Of a DNA stretch of 34,571 nt, positions 1 through 31,172 are shown in pieces. Source of the stretch: a virus; IMG/VR virus record IMGVR_UViG_3300044678_001927, positions 1 through 34,571 of that record, one strand, 5' to 3'. The notes beneath the pieces were generated by a model that saw only the letters and a program-made list of their open reading frames with translations, did no database searches and was not told the DNA's origin. Position 1 is the stretch's first letter, and each line of letters starts with the position of its first letter. The translations under genes were made by a program, and so were the position numbers.

Positions 1-1115
1 TGATTTGCGATCTGATTTCTGATCTCGTTCTCGAAGTCTGCGGCGTCTTGTGCCGCCTGCGCTCGCATTTTTGCGGTGCTTTCAAGGATCGACGACATGA
101 GCGTCAAACCAGAAAACCCGGTGCCATACATGGCCTGCTCTTCGTAGGGCACGGCGTAGTCTCTGGCCTCGGCTGGTGTCTTTGGCTTGCCACCACGGCC
201 ACCACTTCCCTTGCCCATGCCAGCAAGCTTCTCTTCGGCAGCAAGAATCTTGAGCTTTAGGTCAAGCTGAGTCTTTGAGTTTTCAATCCCTTCTTTGTCT
301 GCGTTGATTCTCAGCTTTATCGCCGTCGCTTCGCGTTTTTCGGCGTCAGACATGAGACGTTCTGCGTCGCCGAATACAGCAAGCCGTGTTCCTTCTGGAA
401 ACCTTGCCAGAACGCTATTTTTCAGCTGCTCCAATCTTTGTTCATTGTTGCTGATTGATGACTCTAGGTCTTTGATTTCTTTCTCGGTTTGCGCTTTGGA
501 TACTGCCGACTTTCCCCCTGATATTTCGGTGTTCAGCTCATCGAGCTTCTTTTTGAGGTCTTCGGTTGTTTGCAATGATGCAATTCTCATATCAAGAATT
601 GAATTCCTGATTTTGATTGCAGCCTGAGACGCCTCTTGTTGCTTTTTTATGAAGTCTGTTACTGCGCCTGTCAGTTGCGCCACCGCAATCATCGCAACCT
701 GCGCAACGCCGGCTACACCCATGCCGAGGCCAAGGCCTTGCACGAGACCAGGCACGTTATTCACGACGCCCTTGATTCCGTACTGTGCATCGTCGAGGGT
801 CTGCGAAAACATGAGCAACCCGTAGCCCATGTTCTTGCCGCCGCCGCCCGCTCCTGCGCCGCCTGGAGATGCACCGACCGCATGACCCGCTGCCCTTGAG
901 AGCGCCTCCAGCTCTTTTGTGTATCTCTCGACATTGGGACCGCCCGCCGCGATGGCGGCGTTCAGGTCTTTGATGTCTTTCTCGAGCATGATCATGTTTT
1001 TGTCGACGCGAGCGACGACGCTGTCGACACCGCCGAAGCGCTTCTCGACGTCGGCAACCGCTTTTTGGGCGTCGGCCGCATTGACCTTGACGACGTATTC
1101 GATCGTTTGCGTCAT
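1..1115 (-). CDS. Tape measure protein, N-terminal part (runs off left edge)
   Basis: The leftward frame from the ATG at 1115 is open to the window edge, giving about 371 residues and no stop. The N-terminus (residues 1-75) is a heptad-rich helix, followed by a Gly/Ala linker (80-94). A hydrophobic segment at about 121-152 (VPGLVQGLGLGMGVAGVAQV and onwards) is followed by a long charged coiled coil (155-310). A large, helical, partly hydrophobic protein just after a G/GT-like chaperone pair fits a siphovirus tail length ruler that also lines the tail lumen. The ATG overlaps the stop of the preceding frame as ATGA, indicating translational coupling. The first part is GC-rich and the part below about 660 is AT-richer, suggesting a mosaic gene. 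The family call rests on context and composition; no catalytic domain is visible in the part present. Confidence 0.85.
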   Translation of the reverse strand, partial: MTQTIEYVVKVNAADAQKAVADVEKRFGGVDSVVARVDKNMIMLEKDIKDLNAAIAAGGPNVERYTKELEALSRAAGHAVGASPGGAGAGGGGKNMGYGLLMFSQTLDDAQYGIKGVVNNVPGLVQGLGLGMGVAGVAQVAMIAVAQLTGAVTDFIKKQQEASQAAIKIRNSILDMRIASLQTTEDLKKKLDELNTEISGGKSAVSKAQTEKEIKDLESSISNNEQRLEQLKNSVLARFPEGTRLAVFGDAERLMSDAEKREATAIKLRINADKEGIENSKTQLDLKLKILAAEEKLAGMGKGSGGRGGKPKTPAEARDYAVPYEEQAMYGTGFSGLTLMSSILESTAKMRAQAAQDAADFENEIRNQIAN

Positions 1116-1492
1116 CGCTTCCTCGTCGGCCTTGCGGCGTCGTGTGCTCGTGCGTCGTTGCGTGCCTGCTCGGCATCCGACTGCATCTTAGCAGCTCGGC
1201 CAGAATCGATAACTGCCAAAGCGTCGGCGGCATGCGTCGAGAGCACCCTCAGGGCCTCGACCCCCGGCTTGCCCTCACAAGAGCGCCAAAGCGCCAGCGC
1301 TCCGCTCACATCGGGATGGTCGCGCAAGTGTCGACGTGGACACCGCCGTGTGGCGTACTCAGTGCCCGCGAAAAAAAGCACAGGCCCATCGCGCAAGCAG
1401 CCCTGTTGCTCACGTCGCGCTGCGGGACAGTCGTCACAGTCGTACCGGGTCAGGTCGACAGCGGAGGCAGCCCACAGCGCACGGCTTTTCCC
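1112..1492 (-). CDS. Tail assembly chaperone, frameshift-expressed C-terminal part (GT-like)
   Basis: This frame is open from inside the upstream chaperone gene to a stop at 1112 and has no ATG or GTG start; the only non-standard starts are a CTG at 1453 that overlaps the upstream TGA and a TTG at 1396. It lies in the -1 frame relative to the upstream gene and is joined to it by the heptamer at 1486-1492. The fusion would have 205 residues of the upstream protein plus 124 from this frame, 329 in all. The extension has a Cys cluster (YDCDDCP followed by a further Cys about 12 residues on), then a charged helical tail rich in Ala and Arg. By position it matches lambda T, the frameshift-made part of gpGT that bridges tail tube and tape measure. 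That it is expressed as a fusion is inferred; independent CTG initiation is the alternative. Confidence 0.65.
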   Translation of the reverse strand, partial: GKSRALWAASAVDLTRYDCDDCPAARREQQGCLRDGPVLFFAGTEYATRRCPRRHLRDHPDVSGALALWRSCEGKPGVEALRVLSTHAADALAVIDSGRAAKMQSDAEQARNDARAHDAARPTRKR

Positions 1493-2100
1493 GGCGGCAG
1501 CTCGAGGAAGTGCCGCGCCGCCGAGTAAAGCGGCGTCAGCAGGCCCGCCAGCACAAGCCCCGGCATCGACTCGGCGACCGTGGCCTTCAAGCCCTCGATG
1601 CCTTGGATCTCGACGACAACCGCTGAAACCACCCTGGCCGCGAGGGCATCCAAGGCATTGGTCGCCGCCGCCATCGCGACCATGTCGCCATCCAGCCGCG
1701 CCTCTTTGACTCGACCCCAGGCGGCCGAGGTCTCAGCGCTCCAGTTGCGGCGGTCGGCGTCTGAGACGACCGACATCGTCACCACGATGCCGTCCAGCTC
1801 GGGCGCCGGCTCGTAGGGCTCGATCTCCTCGAGCGCGTTGCCCTCGGCCAGCTCCGCGAGCAGGCGCGCCTCCTTGGCCACGACCGGACTCTCGCGAGCT
1901 GTAGCAGCCTCAGAGAGGCGCTTGACGCCCTCGGCAACCTGCGTCCAGTCGGTGGAGTCGTCGAGCGGCACGCGGCGCTTTCGGCGTCCCTCGATTTGCG
2001 CCAGGCGCAATGCTCGAGACGATTCGTGCGCCTCGCGAAGGACGTCCTGCAACGGGACCGGGGTGCCTTTGGTGCCTGGATAGATGAGCAGAGTTGGCAT
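1450..2100 (-). CDS. Tail assembly chaperone (G-like)
   Basis: A 216-residue protein beginning MPTLLIYPGTKG. The first 100 residues are mostly helical and charged, with a Glu/Pro segment (EEIEPYEPAPE) near 95-100. A second part (about 105-190) has a beta-like start (DGIVVTMSVV) and Ala-rich helices. No enzyme motifs are visible. Position directly before the tape measure gene, a downstream overlapping frame without a start, and the in-frame slippery heptamer near its 3' end make it the G-like chaperone that coats the tape measure protein during tail assembly. It follows the Ig-like gene with a 12-base gap. Sequence alone would not identify it; the call depends on arrangement. Confidence 0.65.
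   Translation of the reverse strand: MPTLLIYPGTKGTPVPLQDVLREAHESSRALRLAQIEGRRKRRVPLDDSTDWTQVAEGVKRLSEAATARESPVVAKEARLLAELAEGNALEEIEPYEPAPELDGIVVTMSVVSDADRRNWSAETSAAWGRVKEARLDGDMVAMAAATNALDALAARVVSAVVVEIQGIEGLKATVAESMPGLVLAGLLTPLYSAARHFLELPPGKAVRCGLPPLST
1486..1492 (-). promoter_or_regulatory. Programmed -1 ribosomal frameshift site (slippery heptamer)
   Basis: On the leftward strand the heptamer is G GGA AAA, in exactly the required zero frame (codons 204-205, Gly-Lys, of the gene starting at 2100). It fits the X XXY YYZ rule and differs only in the last base from the lambda G/T heptamer G GGA AAG. Slipping back one base enters the frame that stops at 1112, which otherwise lacks a normal start codon. 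It sits 12 codons before the zero-frame stop and immediately upstream of the tape measure gene, the classical place for this event. Confidence 0.7.
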
Positions 2101-2112
2101 GGGGCCTCGATA

Positions 2113-2427
2113 TCACACGCGCTGTGGAACGTCGACAATCGTGAGGGTGCCCGACAGGACGGGCAGGTTCTCGTCGACGTCGGAGACCCAAACCTCGTAA
2201 GGCCAACGGCCCGGCTGTAGCGCCGAGGAGTAGTCCGCCGCGGCGAAGGCAAAGGTCGCCTCGCCCGTCGCCGGTGAGACCACCGTGCCAGACTTCACCA
2301 GTTGGCCTTGGGCGCGCACGACGAGAGAGACCGCATATCCGGTCAGATTGAATGGCGACCCGCCGCTGGAGCGAACCTGGAGCGTTACGGTCTGGGTGTG
2401 GCCTTGCTTGATCGAGAGCGCCGTCAT
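2113..2427 (-). CDS. Small beta-sandwich tail/baseplate-like protein
   Basis: A 104-residue protein that starts MTALSIKQGHTQTVTLQVRS and continues with NLTGYAVSLVVRAQG, a pattern of alternating strands typical of Ig-like or BppU-N-like domains: a leading ITIKQGD-like strand, then PFNLTGY. The end (PYEVWVSDVDENLPVLSGTLTI) is the usual closing hairpin. It has no signal peptide or membrane segment and is likely a virion surface or tail accessory protein. Its ATG overlaps the stop of the repeat-protein gene (ATGA at 2424-2427), so the two are coupled. The fold assignment comes from pattern recognition and the exact partner is unknown. Confidence 0.6.
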   Translation of the reverse strand: MTALSIKQGHTQTVTLQVRSSGGSPFNLTGYAVSLVVRAQGQLVKSGTVVSPATGEATFAFAAADYSSALQPGRWPYEVWVSDVDENLPVLSGTLTIVDVPQRV

Positions 2428-3164
2428 GGGTGCACCTGCCCGAGAAGAGAGAGACTGGCCGGCACGGTGCCGACGATTGGCAGAGTAGCAGGCACGGTGC
2501 CCGTCGCCGAGAGCGTAGCAGGCACGGTGCCAATAAGCGCCGGTGCTTTGTTCGTCGCCCAGATCGTGACGTCGTCGAGGGTGATGGCGCCGGTGCCCGT
2601 CGTGGCAGGCACGGTGCCCGTGCCGACGAACGCCACGCTGTCGAGCGTGATCCCACCCGTGGCGACGTGGGCCTGTGTGCCTGCACCAGCAACGGTGACG
2701 TCGTCGAGAGTGACCGCGCCCGTGCTGTCGACGACTGGCGAGCCCGCACCTGCGAAGGTGACGCCGTCGAGCGTGACAGCGCCGCTTGCGACGACGACGG
2801 GTGAGCCAGACCCTGCAACCGTGACGCTGTCGAGGGTGATGGCGCCAGTGCCGTCTGTGCTTGCCGAGCCAGCGTCACCGGTGCCAGCGAACGCCACGTC
2901 GTCGAGGGTGATGCTGCCGGTGCCAACGTGGGTCTGTTGGCCCGAGCCAGCAAAGACCACGTCATCGAGAGTGATATCGCCCGTGGCGTCGACGCCAGAC
3001 CCGACGGTGCCCGAGCCTGCTACCGTGACGTCGTCGAGGGTGATTCCACCCGTCGCGACGTGCGTCTGCGTGCCGTCGCCAGCAACGACGACGTCGTCGA
3101 GCGTGATCGTGCCTGAAGCACTCACGCCCGCGAAGCTGACGCCAGAGAGTAGCGTCAGCAGCAC
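2424..3164 (-). CDS. Repeat-rich structural protein with ITLDDV repeats
   Basis: A 246-residue protein made almost wholly of repeats. After a short N-terminus (MLLTLLSGVSFAGVSA), about nine units of 21-24 residues follow, each with a core G-x-I/V-T-L-D-D/S-V-x-V/F-A-G-x-G and a variable spacer such as TQTHVATG or SPVVDSTG. The last 45 residues switch to three copies of GTVPATL-like units. Regular strand-turn repeats of this size suggest a beta-helix, solenoid or fibre spacer. GTG at 3164, four bases after the previous stop, is the most economical start. The hydrophobic N-terminus could resemble a signal peptide but is short and uncharged. Its place in the tail cluster suggests a virion component; its function is unknown. 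Confidence 0.75.
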   Translation of the reverse strand: MLLTLLSGVSFAGVSASGTITLDDVVVAGDGTQTHVATGGITLDDVTVAGSGTVGSGVDATGDITLDDVVFAGSGQQTHVGTGSITLDDVAFAGTGDAGSASTDGTGAITLDSVTVAGSGSPVVVASGAVTLDGVTFAGAGSPVVDSTGAVTLDDVTVAGAGTQAHVATGGITLDSVAFVGTGTVPATTGTGAITLDDVTIWATNKAPALIGTVPATLSATGTVPATLPIVGTVPASLSLLGQVHP

Positions 3165-3168
3165 GTCG

Positions 3169-3333
3169 TCACACCAGCGTCAGCAGTTGGTTCAACGTAG
3201 CTTGCGTAGTCAGAAGCTCGGCGTCGACCACAGAAGCTTGAGCAATGTCTCCGATTGAAAGAGCTGACTGGCGAAGCTGTGAAAGATATGCGATTCGTGC
3301 TTGGGCCATCGAAATAAGCTGCTCGACAGTCAT
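3169..3333 (-). CDS. Small helical protein, 54 aa, unknown
   Basis: A 54-residue frame starting MTVEQLISMAQARIAYLSQL and ending LNQLLTLV. Its ATG overlaps the stop of the propeller-like gene by one base (TGATG), and it stops just before the GTG of the repeat protein. It is predicted to be one or two amphipathic helices with heptad spacing of Leu, Ile and Ala, so a coiled-coil oligomerisation role is plausible. Tight coupling on both sides and in-frame coding character support a real gene. Small helical proteins of this kind often accompany phage appendage genes, but I recognise no family. Confidence 0.7.
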   Translation of the reverse strand: MTVEQLISMAQARIAYLSQLRQSALSIGDIAQASVVDAELLTTQATLNQLLTLV

Positions 3334-4760
3334 CACACCACCATGCATCGCAACATTACGTTGGATGTGTTGAGAATCATGTAAATATAGATGATTTTTG
3401 TTGTTCCATCTATATATCTTGCATCAAAACAAGTATCGCCAGCAATTGCAGCGCCTTGTGTGTATGTCATCGTCATCCAGCCGTCCTGTTCACCTGTTAC
3501 AACATTATGTCTAAACCACCGGCCTGTTGCGTCTTTTTGGATGTAAATGAAGTTGCCGTCGTAGTTGTATTTTGTGCCAGCACCGAACACCTCAGTAGCA
3601 GGCGAATAGGCAAGCCCAGACACCCATGTGTTCCCTGGGATGTCGTAGCGATCAAGGGTGGAGCCAGCGCCGCCGCGAAACGAATAGATGTATCTCCCGT
3701 TTTGGATGGCGTTCTCGTTGGTCCACGCGGCGTCGTCTGATTCAAACACCCAGTGGCCTGACATTCCAACGGCTGGAGCCGCAGCACGCGCTGAAGCAGG
3801 AGTCAGCGTCGTCCATGTATTCGACGTGATGCTGTAGCGGATGATCGCGACGTTGTTGGATCCCATGTAATAAAGGAAGTCGTCGTTGCCTTCGATGCTG
3901 TAGACCGACGTCGCATCAGGCTGTGTCGTCCACGCTGCCGACGTCGTCAGCACCGTCGCGGTGTTGCTGGCGATTGTGCGGATTTGACCAGCTCCAGTGC
4001 CCGACACGATACGCACCTGCGAGTTGGTCCACTGATTGACGGTCCACGCCTTCGCGGAGTTTGTCAGCGTCGACGCGCCGCCAGCAGTGGCCGTGCCGGT
4101 TGCGAATTGCTCGTAGCCTGAACCAACCCACGACGGGGTTGACAAAAGCTTTGAATCTGTGCCGATGACGTTGGTTGGCGCGTTTGCAGACAGAGTGGTC
4201 CACGTATTCAACGCAAAGTCATAAAAACGAAATACACCCGCCGTCGTGAGACCAGAAGCCGTAATGGCATTCATGATATACCAACGTGGAGTCAAAAGCC
4301 TGAACGTTGTCGACGCACTGAACGCCGACGCTTGTGCTGGTACAGTGATGACGGAATTCGCACCGATGGTATTGCTCGCAATCTCCAGCGTAACGCCAGC
4401 ATTGGGGCCGCCAGTGATGTGGATCGAATACCCTCGGAGGTCACGAGCAAGTGTGAGACCCGTCGTGATCGTCGACGTCGTCCCAGCCGTTGCGGTGCCC
4501 GACGGACCAACGGCAGTGGCGACGCCACAAGCGCCAGCGGCAAAGGTCCCTGCAAGTGCCCCTGACGGAATCTGAGTAAATCCATCCTCCAAAGGATTAT
4601 ACAGATAATGAACAGTGGCAGACGACATAAAAAGTTGACTCTGTCTATAGTGCCTTGACGATACAACAAAACTTCCTGCCGAAGTCGCCACAGGAGCAGG
4701 AGTGCAAAACTCCCAGCGCTTGAGGTCAAGGAGTTTTCGATTTCCATTCGTAGTCGGCAT
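3333..4760 (-). CDS. Beta-propeller-like tail appendage / receptor-binding candidate
   Basis: A 475-residue protein with recurring kelch-like blocks: aromatic and Gly-rich units such as RFYDFALNTWTTLS, IRYSITSNTWTTLTPAS, DRYDIPGNTWVSGLA and RHNVVTGEQDGW, each spaced by about 100 residues or less. Between them are two copies of a separate module with TATAGG/TSTIT or STLTN, then GAGQIRTIASNT, which resembles inserted domains of phage structural proteins. There are no catalytic motifs. N-terminal residues (MPTTNGNRKLLDLKRWEF) look like an attachment segment. The gene is AT-richer than the head genes, as is common for host-range genes that exchange by recombination. It overlaps both neighbours by one base. 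Receptor binding is inferred from architecture and context. Confidence 0.6.
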   Translation of the reverse strand: MPTTNGNRKLLDLKRWEFCTPAPVATSAGSFVVSSRHYRQSQLFMSSATVHYLYNPLEDGFTQIPSGALAGTFAAGACGVATAVGPSGTATAGTTSTITTGLTLARDLRGYSIHITGGPNAGVTLEIASNTIGANSVITVPAQASAFSASTTFRLLTPRWYIMNAITASGLTTAGVFRFYDFALNTWTTLSANAPTNVIGTDSKLLSTPSWVGSGYEQFATGTATAGGASTLTNSAKAWTVNQWTNSQVRIVSGTGAGQIRTIASNTATVLTTSAAWTTQPDATSVYSIEGNDDFLYYMGSNNVAIIRYSITSNTWTTLTPASARAAAPAVGMSGHWVFESDDAAWTNENAIQNGRYIYSFRGGAGSTLDRYDIPGNTWVSGLAYSPATEVFGAGTKYNYDGNFIYIQKDATGRWFRHNVVTGEQDGWMTMTYTQGAAIAGDTCFDARYIDGTTKIIYIYMILNTSNVMLRCMVV

Positions 4761-5212
4761 CAGGTCACCACAATATTCCTGCGCAATGAGTCAGAACCCA
4801 TACGCATTAGGGAGGGAACATGTTCAGTAGCATTTAAGCCACCAATTTGGGATTGATTTGTTACAGTAGAAACAGTTGTAACAGTAGAAACAGTTGTAAC
4901 AGTTCCACTTGATATTGTTGTCGCGACACTGGCAGGCGCTGCGGCGAGGCTTACGAGCAATCGGCCGGCAGAGTCTGGCATCGATTGGCCAACGGATCTC
5001 AGCAGTGCGTGCAGTGTGATTCTAATTGCCGATAATTGCTCGACGAGTTCCCCCACTCCTTGAATCGGCAGCGGGTTGCTCGCTGCGACGTCGCCATCGT
5101 TGACGCCGTCGACGCCCTGCACGATCTTGACACGCTGAAGGAGCGCCCCGCCGACGTTGTCGGCAGCAATCGTGGCGCCCGTGCCCGGTGTGTAGCCGAC
5201 GTTGTCACTCAT
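4760..5212 (-). CDS. Conserved phage structural protein of unknown role, 150 aa
   Basis: The N-terminus (MSDNVGYTPGTGATIAADNV, then VKIVQGVDGVNDGDVA) matches a segment I recognise from many tailed-phage virion gene clusters, where the protein is usually left unnamed. It is followed by a helical segment (GELVEQLSAIRITLHALL) and a Thr/Val-rich stretch with a short tandem repeat (TVTTVSTVTTVSTV, about residues 103-116), visible as repeated bases around 4866-4905. The repeat may be a flexible linker or a triple-stranded fibre. The C-terminus has ATEHVPSLMRMGSDSLRR. It sits between the 5221 gene and the propeller-like gene and probably connects them in the particle. Confidence 0.65.
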   Translation of the reverse strand: MSDNVGYTPGTGATIAADNVGGALLQRVKIVQGVDGVNDGDVAASNPLPIQGVGELVEQLSAIRITLHALLRSVGQSMPDSAGRLLVSLAAAPASVATTISSGTVTTVSTVTTVSTVTNQSQIGGLNATEHVPSLMRMGSDSLRRNIVVT

Positions 5213-5220
5213 GATTCACC

Positions 5221-5622
5221 TCAGTTGTTTCCATCGGTGATGGTCAGCGACGTCACCTGCACGGGTTGACCGGACACGATCGACAGCGTCGTCAGGTTGA
5301 GATCTGACCCGCTCGTTCCGCAGTCGCCGTCACAGACGAACGTGCCCGTGGAGTCGACGAGATAGAAAAACGCGGCGGTGCCCGTCGCGTTTGCGCTCGT
5401 GTCGCTGAACGGCGTCGTGAACGTCAGCACGCCACCCGTCGACGACCCGCATGGGTCGGCGCACGTCAGCTCAGCGAGCAAGGTGCCCGCTGGCGTGCCG
5501 CCCTTGGCGGGCTTGGTGCCGGAGTAGATGCGAAGCAGGCCCGCGCCTGCGCCAGCGTCGACGGCGATGCGGATTTCGTCGACGCGAAGATTTCGGACGG
5601 TGTTTGCGATGCGGACAGCCAT
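5221..5622 (-). CDS. Conserved phage structural protein, 133 aa
   Basis: The chosen start is the ATG at 5622 (MAVRIANTVRNLRVDEIRIA), just after the tail tube stop; an upstream extension is possible but would lie inside the tail tube gene. The protein continues with VDAGAGAGLLRIYSGTKPAK and a beta-rich body containing two Cys pairs (ADPCGS and DGDCGTS). The segment 'dag.g.glLriYsGt.Pa' is familiar from small virion-cluster proteins of many siphoviruses, whose role is not established. Most likely it is a minor tail or appendage component. It has no signal peptide or membrane helix. Confidence 0.65.
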   Translation of the reverse strand: MAVRIANTVRNLRVDEIRIAVDAGAGAGLLRIYSGTKPAKGGTPAGTLLAELTCADPCGSSTGGVLTFTTPFSDTSANATGTAAFFYLVDSTGTFVCDGDCGTSGSDLNLTTLSIVSGQPVQVTSLTITDGNN

Positions 5623-5626
5623 GTGA

Positions 5627-6859
5627 TCACCCCACAGCGAGGATAGCAGGAAGAGCGCCGGTACCAGTGGCGACGACGCGAGCGACAGTGAGCCCGTCAG
5701 TGTGCTGCGTGGTGACCACGCAATCGGCCTCGGGCAGATAGGCATACACGACCGCGCCGACTTCGCTGCCGACTTGCAGCGAGACCTTGCGCGTCGCCGA
5801 CGGCTGGCCGCTTGCGGCGCTGTCGCCGATGAGCTCGTTGAGCGTCGGCGTGCCCGCGCTGTCTTGGAGTTCGCCGGTCAACGTCGCGTCACCGAGGTAG
5901 ATGCTGAACTCCATCGTGAACGTCTTACCATCGCCCGTCGACGACACGCCACCGAGGCGACCGTTTGTGCGCGTCGACGCAACACGCGGGGTCGTCGCGG
6001 CGGAGTAGTTGATCGTGATGTCGCGCGCGATGACGTCGTTTCCGGCGAACCACATGCGGCACGCGTCGACGACGATCGGATTGCCCGACACCGGCTCATT
6101 GTGCGCTGGGTTGGCTTCTGCGACGTCGGCGAACGACGTCGGCGAAAAGACAGACGACATCGTCATCAGGCCAGCGTTGGGCACCGCGAGGCTCATACTC
6201 ATCGGCATGCAGCCGAAGTAGTCGCGTCGCCAATCCTCGCCCTCGGCGGTGAAGAATGCGTGGGTGTGCTGCGTCACGCTGTCGCTGACGCTGTAGACCG
6301 CGAGACGAAACACGGTCGCCGACGACGTCGGCGTGCCGCTGTAGGGATGGTCAAGCGTCAACGTCGTCGTGCCGCCACCGCTCGCGATGCGGCCGACTTG
6401 CAGGCCCGCCGACGAAGAAAACGCGATGACCTGACCATTGGCCGTCGTGGTGCCGACGACGGCGAGGATGCCAGATGATGGCGTGTGACCCGATGACGCC
6501 ACCGTCGGCGCAACGCCCGTCGTCGCCGGAGCCACCGCACCGAAGAGCGATGCAAGCAAGTAGCCTTGCTCCATCTTCGCTTCCCAGTCGGTGACGGCCG
6601 CGCCCGTGTTGCTGTTGACCCCGCGCATCTCGGTCGCGACGGTGATGTCGGCGAGGTCTTGGACGCCGCGTATGTGACTGTAGCGCCGGCCAGAGAGCGA
6701 GCGCAGCGGGCGCGGAATCGGCGTGCGATTGCGCGGAAGGAAGCTCGCGCCGTCGTCGGTGAGACGAAGCGGGAACAACGTGCCGGGCGTGCCGCTGAAC
6801 GTGGCGTTGTTCGTATGCAGCGCGTAGCGCAGCGTCGAGAGTCTGGCGACGTCGGTCAT
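5627..6859 (-). CDS. Major tail tube protein
   Basis: A 410-residue beta-rich protein directly after the tail terminator and before appendage genes. The opening (MTDVARLSTLRYALHTNNAT, then SGRRYSHIRGVQDLADITVATEMRGVN) is typical of long tail tube proteins. A middle part (about 115-210) carries a Gly/Thr-rich segment (SAGLQVGRIASGGGTTTLTL), as in tube proteins with an inserted or added Ig-like domain. The C-terminal part (FTMEFSIYLGDATLTGELQD and VSLQVGSEVGAVVYAYLPEA) gives more strands of the tube barrel. At 410 residues it is longer than lambda V (246), so an extra domain is likely. Assignment rests on gene order and fold-like patterns. Its ATG overlaps the terminator gene's stop. Confidence 0.75.
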   Translation of the reverse strand: MTDVARLSTLRYALHTNNATFSGTPGTLFPLRLTDDGASFLPRNRTPIPRPLRSLSGRRYSHIRGVQDLADITVATEMRGVNSNTGAAVTDWEAKMEQGYLLASLFGAVAPATTGVAPTVASSGHTPSSGILAVVGTTTANGQVIAFSSSAGLQVGRIASGGGTTTLTLDHPYSGTPTSSATVFRLAVYSVSDSVTQHTHAFFTAEGEDWRRDYFGCMPMSMSLAVPNAGLMTMSSVFSPTSFADVAEANPAHNEPVSGNPIVVDACRMWFAGNDVIARDITINYSAATTPRVASTRTNGRLGGVSSTGDGKTFTMEFSIYLGDATLTGELQDSAGTPTLNELIGDSAASGQPSATRKVSLQVGSEVGAVVYAYLPEADCVVTTQHTDGLTVARVVATGTGALPAILAVG

Positions 6860-30179: not shown

Positions 30180-31172
30180 TCAGGTCGCGCGGTAGACGAG
30201 ACGGACGCCGTGCTCGTCGGTGTGCTCAGCAAGGCCCCAGCACCAACGGCCGACGGCGAGCAAGGTGTCGTCGCTGAGGTCGTACGAGAAGCCCAGCGAC
30301 GGCTCGTAACGCTCCACCATCTCGGCGAATCCGCGCACGCTGCCTGGGGCGCCGGTCTCGCCACGGCCGGCGACGATGAGCGCACCGACGCGGTCAACGC
30401 CAGCGTTTGCCGTCGCCATGACCGAGCGGTTGGCCGCGTAGATCGGGACGCCAGCGAACGAGCCGCGAAAGCCGTTGCGCGAGGCGTCGGGTCGGTGATT
30501 GAAGAACGACACGTCACCGCTTCCGCCACCGCCGAAGATTGCCGACAGCGAGGCACCGGTGCCGCCAGCGGCGAGGGTGCGGAGGTGGCTCAGGCCCACT
30601 TCGTCGATGACGAAGAGCGCATCTTCAGACTCGACGTTGTTGTCGAAGAGCTTCAACATCGCGTCGATCATCGTGGCGAACGACAACGTGGTGTTGGTCG
30701 TGCCGGACGACTCCGAGAGACCGGGGAACAACGCGAGCCCATCGGTCTCGGCGCGGAGATAGTGAGACTGGAGGATCTCCATCATCGCGTCACGAACGAG
30801 CGGGAGAGCAGCGGCGTTGCCACCTTCGATCGACGCGATCACCTGGCTGCGAGGCACGCCAGGCAGCGCGAGCTCGACGGCGTCAGCCGAGAGCTGCACG
30901 CCCTGCACCTTGGTCGTCGGCGTGATCGAGATATTCGCCGCGACGCCGAGAGCAGGCGGGTTGCTGTAGGCAACACCCTCGGTGTCGTCGACAGCAGCGG
31001 CGATCGCATTTTTCTTTCGGATGCGGCGGACCTTCGTCGCACGGCCCGAGATGTCGGCCATGTTGAGGAAGGGCAGCAGCACGTACTTGCCGCGCAACGG
31101 GTCGAGGGCGATTTGGCTCATGACCTCGGTCAAGATCCAATTGGCAACGGTCGTAGAGGTAGAGACGGGCAT
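30180..31172 (-). CDS. Major capsid protein (HK97-fold)
   Basis: A 330-residue protein, AGGTGA before ATG 31172. It starts MPVSTSTTVANWILTEVMSQ and shows features of HK97-type capsids: an N-arm with LRGKYVLLPFLNMADISGRA, an E-loop-like basic stretch (KVRRIRKKNAIAAAVDDTEG), a P-domain spine helix (LVRDAMMEILQSHYLRAETD) and an A-domain with FVIDEVGLSHLRTL, then GSFAGVPIYAANRSV, GALIVAGRG and LAVGRWCWGLAEHTDEHGVR. A strong terminator follows, and a scaffold-like gene precedes it. Length is normal. The fold is inferred from these patterns plus context. Confidence 0.85.
   Translation of the reverse strand: MPVSTSTTVANWILTEVMSQIALDPLRGKYVLLPFLNMADISGRATKVRRIRKKNAIAAAVDDTEGVAYSNPPALGVAANISITPTTKVQGVQLSADAVELALPGVPRSQVIASIEGGNAAALPLVRDAMMEILQSHYLRAETDGLALFPGLSESSGTTNTTLSFATMIDAMLKLFDNNVESEDALFVIDEVGLSHLRTLAAGGTGASLSAIFGGGGSGDVSFFNHRPDASRNGFRGSFAGVPIYAANRSVMATANAGVDRVGALIVAGRGETGAPGSVRGFAEMVERYEPSLGFSYDLSDDTLLAVGRWCWGLAEHTDEHGVRLVYRAT

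Follow-up and report, generated by a model that had tools for sequence, protein, structure and literature searches.

The tail assembly chaperones of phage lambda, gpG and gpGT, are the closest well-described counterparts of the locus analysed here. They are made in a ratio of approximately 30:1, with the G portion binding the tape measure protein and the T portion binding the major tail subunit (PMC5009743). The lambda slip site, G GGA AAG, is highly shift-prone in Escherichia coli, where a single tRNA reads both lysine codons (PMC5009743). In phage TP901-1, loss of either G or T abolishes tails, and forced fusion of the two results in non-infectious particles (PMC4493119). The same expression logic operates ahead of the tape measure gene in P2 (E/E+E′), HK97, D29, Bxb1 and phiC31, although the slip site of P2 is TTTTTTG; our heptamer scan did not resolve that of HK97. 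Arthrobacter phage Molivia also carries a frameshifted pair, gp38/gp39 (204 and 358 aa), just before its tape measure gene.

The slip site and its conservation

The window, by which we mean the whole stretch of viral DNA analysed (34,571 nucleotides; IMG/VR record IMGVR_UViG_3300044678_001927), contains on its minus strand an open frame of 216 codons (1450..2100; ATG at 2100, TGA at 1450) that encodes a putative tail assembly chaperone, here called G. A sequence-only reading of the window had placed a canonical −1 programmed frameshift near the end of this gene, and the geometry it described is borne out. The heptamer G GGA AAA (minus strand, 1486..1492) occupies codons 203-205, where it is read from 1492 to 1486 as CC[G GGA AAA] in the canonical phase X XXY YYZ. 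In the zero frame, the twelfth codon after it is a stop, which leaves a dual-coding stretch of 11 codons (minus strand, 1453..1485) that is read in the −1 frame too. The −1 frame continues as a T-like extension of 124 aa (minus strand, 1112..1486), giving a predicted fusion of 205 plus 124 codons, or 329 aa as calculated earlier. It ends at TGA (1114-1112), overlapping the ATG of the downstream gene at 1115 as ATGA. One detail had to be corrected: the −1 frame had been described as free of ATG and GTG, yet the extension contains a TTG at codon 31, a GTG at codon 36 and an ATG at codon 101. There is nonetheless no ATG, GTG or TTG between the upstream −1 stop, 246 nt before the slip site, and codon 31.

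As a string, GGGAAAA is unremarkable on its own, since the window has four copies where 1.9 would be expected. Canonical X XXY YYZ sites that lie in frame are rare, with 6 among 8,072 codon positions of likely genes. It is conservation among related sequences that provides the decisive test, and it argues that the heptamer exceeds chance. Relatives were first gathered by a protein search of IMG/VR, with G identities of 38-94%. To avoid bias, IMG/VR was searched a second time using a DNA pattern built solely from bases downstream of the heptamer. This heptamer-blind pattern returned 34 viral contigs, 33 of which encode the T extension. GGGAAAA lies directly upstream of the extension in every one of these 33 homologous contigs, as it does in the window; 11 chance matches to the pattern (one in an unrelated viral contig and ten in genomes) lack it. 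The position of the zero-frame stop is identical in 32 of the 32 contigs that reach it, and the length of the dual-coding stretch is constant in all relatives that do so. The sequence-only reading had proposed an alignment of homologs as a check, and both heptamer and frame are retained in 33 of 33; no homolog was found that lacks the heptamer while opening the second frame with its own start. A sequencing error or a pseudogene is ruled out, as the same frame break recurs in no fewer than 33 further contigs, drawn from different metagenomes.

Across the 33 contigs and the window, codon 203 is CCG (26), GTG (7) or GCG (1), such that the residue varies among P, V and A while the final G stays constant; Pro-202, in contrast, uses all four of its codons. 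In 17 divergent sequences, Gly-204 is GGA and Lys-205 is AAA without exception, despite the rarity of both codons in these genes (approximately 5-8% of Gly codons for GGA and approximately 21% of Lys codons for AAA). Codon choice is free to vary at other invariant glycines upstream of the slip site, and the DNA of codons 208-210 is nearly frozen.

A conserved RNA stimulator was sought, and none was demonstrated. A stem downstream of the slip site is highly paired among relatives (93.8% of cells, compared with 28-58% when slid), but it is not backed by any two-sided changes, and its pairing is partly automatic because the variable partners are mostly third positions that allow only C or T. The fold z-score dips right after the slip site (−1.28), but it does so equally elsewhere. 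A conserved upstream SD-like stimulator was not supported, GGAG preceding the slip site in some relatives only.

Relationship to known chaperones and gene order

G has no match among Pfam, PHROG or NCBIfam families, and T has none in Pfam or PHROG. An AlphaFold2 model of G is mostly helical (mean pLDDT 83.7) and gave no significant match in a PDB fold search. Against viral structures its matches were weak, with the short and long tail assembly chaperones of Molivia ranking third and fifth (E 0.044 and 0.14); these are the two named tail assembly chaperones among G's leading structure matches. The model of T was poor (pLDDT 49, too low for judging its fold), and a viral fold search with it returned nothing usable. 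Phage records yielded no cultured relative for G, T, the major tail protein or the portal, and a prophage search of genome contigs gave no match to T. By these searches, the lineage is without cultured relatives for any of the four proteins.

The Molivia pair resembles ours in size, in position and in having a cysteine-rich T. However, it shows no significant sequence match to the window's pair, the heptamer detected in the zero frame of its G gene is TTTTTTG, and its cysteines are differently spaced. Further, its G belongs to the PHROG chaperone families phrog_20192 and phrog_15960, neither of which is matched by the window's G. With lambda, the window shares the slip geometry, a shift near the end of G and placement after the major tail protein. 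The extension is of similar length (144 aa in lambda, 124 aa here) and overlaps the tape measure start in the same way as lambda T overlaps H, and the lambda order V-G-T-H matches that found in our relatives. The heptamer, however, ends in G in lambda and in A here, the zero-frame stop follows after 5 codons rather than 11, G has 140 aa rather than 216, and family searches detect no sequence relation between the two pairs. The description of the pair as lambda G/GT-like stands for its position, expression and architecture, whereas sequence homology to a known chaperone family was not demonstrated.

The gene downstream of the pair (minus strand, 1..1115; ATG at 1115) runs off the window and is a putative tape measure gene, judged in the window by its position and the ATGA overlap. 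Profile searches with its product gave no tape measure family match; the assignment follows mainly from position, together with size variation and composition, complete relatives being helix-rich and 478-626 aa long. A putative major tail protein gene (minus strand, 5627..6859; 410 aa) was assigned by position only, its product having no functional family match. Seven relatives (L013, L018-L022 and L024) have its homolog immediately before G. In L013 and L018-L022, a 303-aa gene and then a 150-aa gene precede the putative major tail protein (410-422 aa), G, GT and the putative tape measure, so that major tail protein, G, GT and tape measure follow one another without insertion, with the neighbours assigned mainly by position; in the window's own clade, accessory genes intervene. 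In L021, the putative tape measure gene is followed by one whose product has a PHROG tail protein match (E 1.8e-8). Other genes of the window encode a terminase large subunit and a tail completion/Neck1 protein.

Between its putative major tail protein and G, the window carries approximately 3.5 kb of accessory genes (minus strand, 2113-5745), encoding a phrog_3758 virion protein, a Kelch-like protein, a repetitive ITLDDV protein and a phrog_1084 protein. The same junction is empty in the distant relatives L013 and L018-L022 and holds other DNA, 1.6-1.9 kb in length, in L015/L017. These differences in content mark the junction as an insertion hotspot. One protein encoded there (minus strand, 2424-3164) is internally repetitive, with a unit near ITLDDVTVAGSGT and a 63-bp DNA repeat at 2679-2851, and the length of its matched region varies between relatives. 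The listed start of another gene (minus strand, 5221-5745) overlaps the gene upstream; translation probably begins at the ATG at 5622 instead, because the phrog_3758 match begins at residue 42. Elsewhere in the window, at a distance from the terminase and portal, 30180-31172 (minus strand) encodes a protein that reads like an HK97-type major capsid protein and has no PHROG or Pfam match at E 0.01. In L021, a gene for a metallophosphoesterase (356-1135; phrog_221, E 1.9e-37) is found upstream of the tail genes.

The T frame and competing explanations

Downstream of the zero-frame stop, pN/pS is 0.12-0.44 in the T frame (13 comparisons) and exceeds 1.2 in both other frames. These values indicate that the extension evolves as protein, and in the −1 frame only. 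In most relatives, conservation is higher in T than in G. All 30 complete T sequences share extension cysteines 17, 20, 30, 49 and 70, and His 53 is kept in 28 of them. The extension thereby contains four or more conserved Cys/His residues, as a zinc ribbon or zinc finger would require for its ligands, and the five cysteines plausibly hold a metal ion. The sequence-only reading had called a Cys-rich segment unusual for a T domain. This is true of six textbook T frames, those of lambda, HK97, P2, D29, Bxb1 and phiC31, which lack CxxC (lambda T has none to set against the five invariant cysteines here), but the annotated chaperone of Molivia has two such motifs. Cysteine-rich T domains are therefore uncommon among textbook phages rather than unique to this lineage.

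Might T instead be a separate gene, translated from an internal start of its own or by coupling at the stop of G, with the heptamer being incidental? Codon 36 of the extension is GTG or ATG in many relatives, and ATG in most of the L017-L023 group; lambda T itself has been deposited as a separate CDS. Yet the first possible T start ranges among relatives from codon 12 to codon 81, or lies upstream of the slip site, and an independent start was ruled out as none is conserved. Starting at codon 36 would, moreover, cost three of the five invariant cysteines. In 9 of the 30 relatives that have T in full, the −1 frame is open for no more than 15 nt before the slip site, so that no start can supply T in these nine. 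Given these closed frames and the absence of a conserved first start, frameshifting is the only common route to T. A separate gene would also leave the invariant GGA AAA and the constant G of codon 203 unexplained, and we consider it very improbable.

The same fused frame would arise if RNA polymerase, rather than the ribosome, slipped on the A run. This run is only four long, and transcriptional slippage usually needs homopolymers longer than that. Polymerase slippage also needs none of the three upstream Gs, yet these and the reading phase are invariant, which makes a transcriptional origin of the fusion barely credible. A different doubt concerns function, namely that the frameshift is real and the fusion serves outside tail assembly, for example as a virion or head-tail component. 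The failure to match a known chaperone family or fold would fit such a role, as would a putative metal site that is atypical of model T domains. The surroundings of the pair argue otherwise, as it sits between a putative major tail protein and a putative tape measure in relatives, has an overlap of the lambda T and H kind, and is followed by a PHROG tail protein. We judge a role outside tail assembly to be decidedly unlikely.

Proposed mechanism and significance

Comparative sequence evidence strongly supports a canonical −1 programmed frameshift in a G/GT-like pair before the tape measure gene. We consider it very likely that ribosomal frameshifting at this locus yields a pair of tail assembly chaperones from a single start. 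Comparisons among relatives support both the slip and the protein-coding nature of the T frame; the chaperone function we infer from gene order and architecture, and the binding partners and product ratio would follow by analogy with lambda. Under this model, most ribosomes would finish the 216-aa G protein. A minority would slip back by one base on G GGA AAA, the P site moving from GGA to GGG and the A site from AAA to AAA, and would read 124 further codons to produce the 329-aa GT fusion. Slippage by the P- and A-site tRNAs is the most likely route, as in lambda (reviewed in PMC5009743). If the analogy holds, the tape measure protein encoded by the next gene would be coated by G, and the few GT molecules would use their T part to bring in the major tail protein and so initiate the tube.

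We speculate that frameshifting places a metal-binding, five-cysteine T, as the recruiter of the major tail protein, on only a few copies, that tail initiation is zinc-dependent, and that the AAA codon reflects the lysine tRNAs of the host. We hold this idea tentatively, as possible rather than probable. AAA might be a better slip codon than AAG in a host that has a second lysine tRNA, which we offer as a prediction only; the window itself was found to carry no tRNA genes.

The frameshift trick is well known from other phages, and the pair of this lineage is an addition to a known kind. Here, G/GT frameshifting is a fixed trait of an uncultured, siphovirus-like lineage, and neither its G nor its T matches a described family. 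For this reason, T would be missed and the product split if annotation relied on a gene caller or on homology. Because the slip site and the cysteine set of T are more conserved than the surrounding protein, the lineage offers a clean comparative case. Its cysteine-rich T also poses a concrete and testable question: how T recruits the tube protein.
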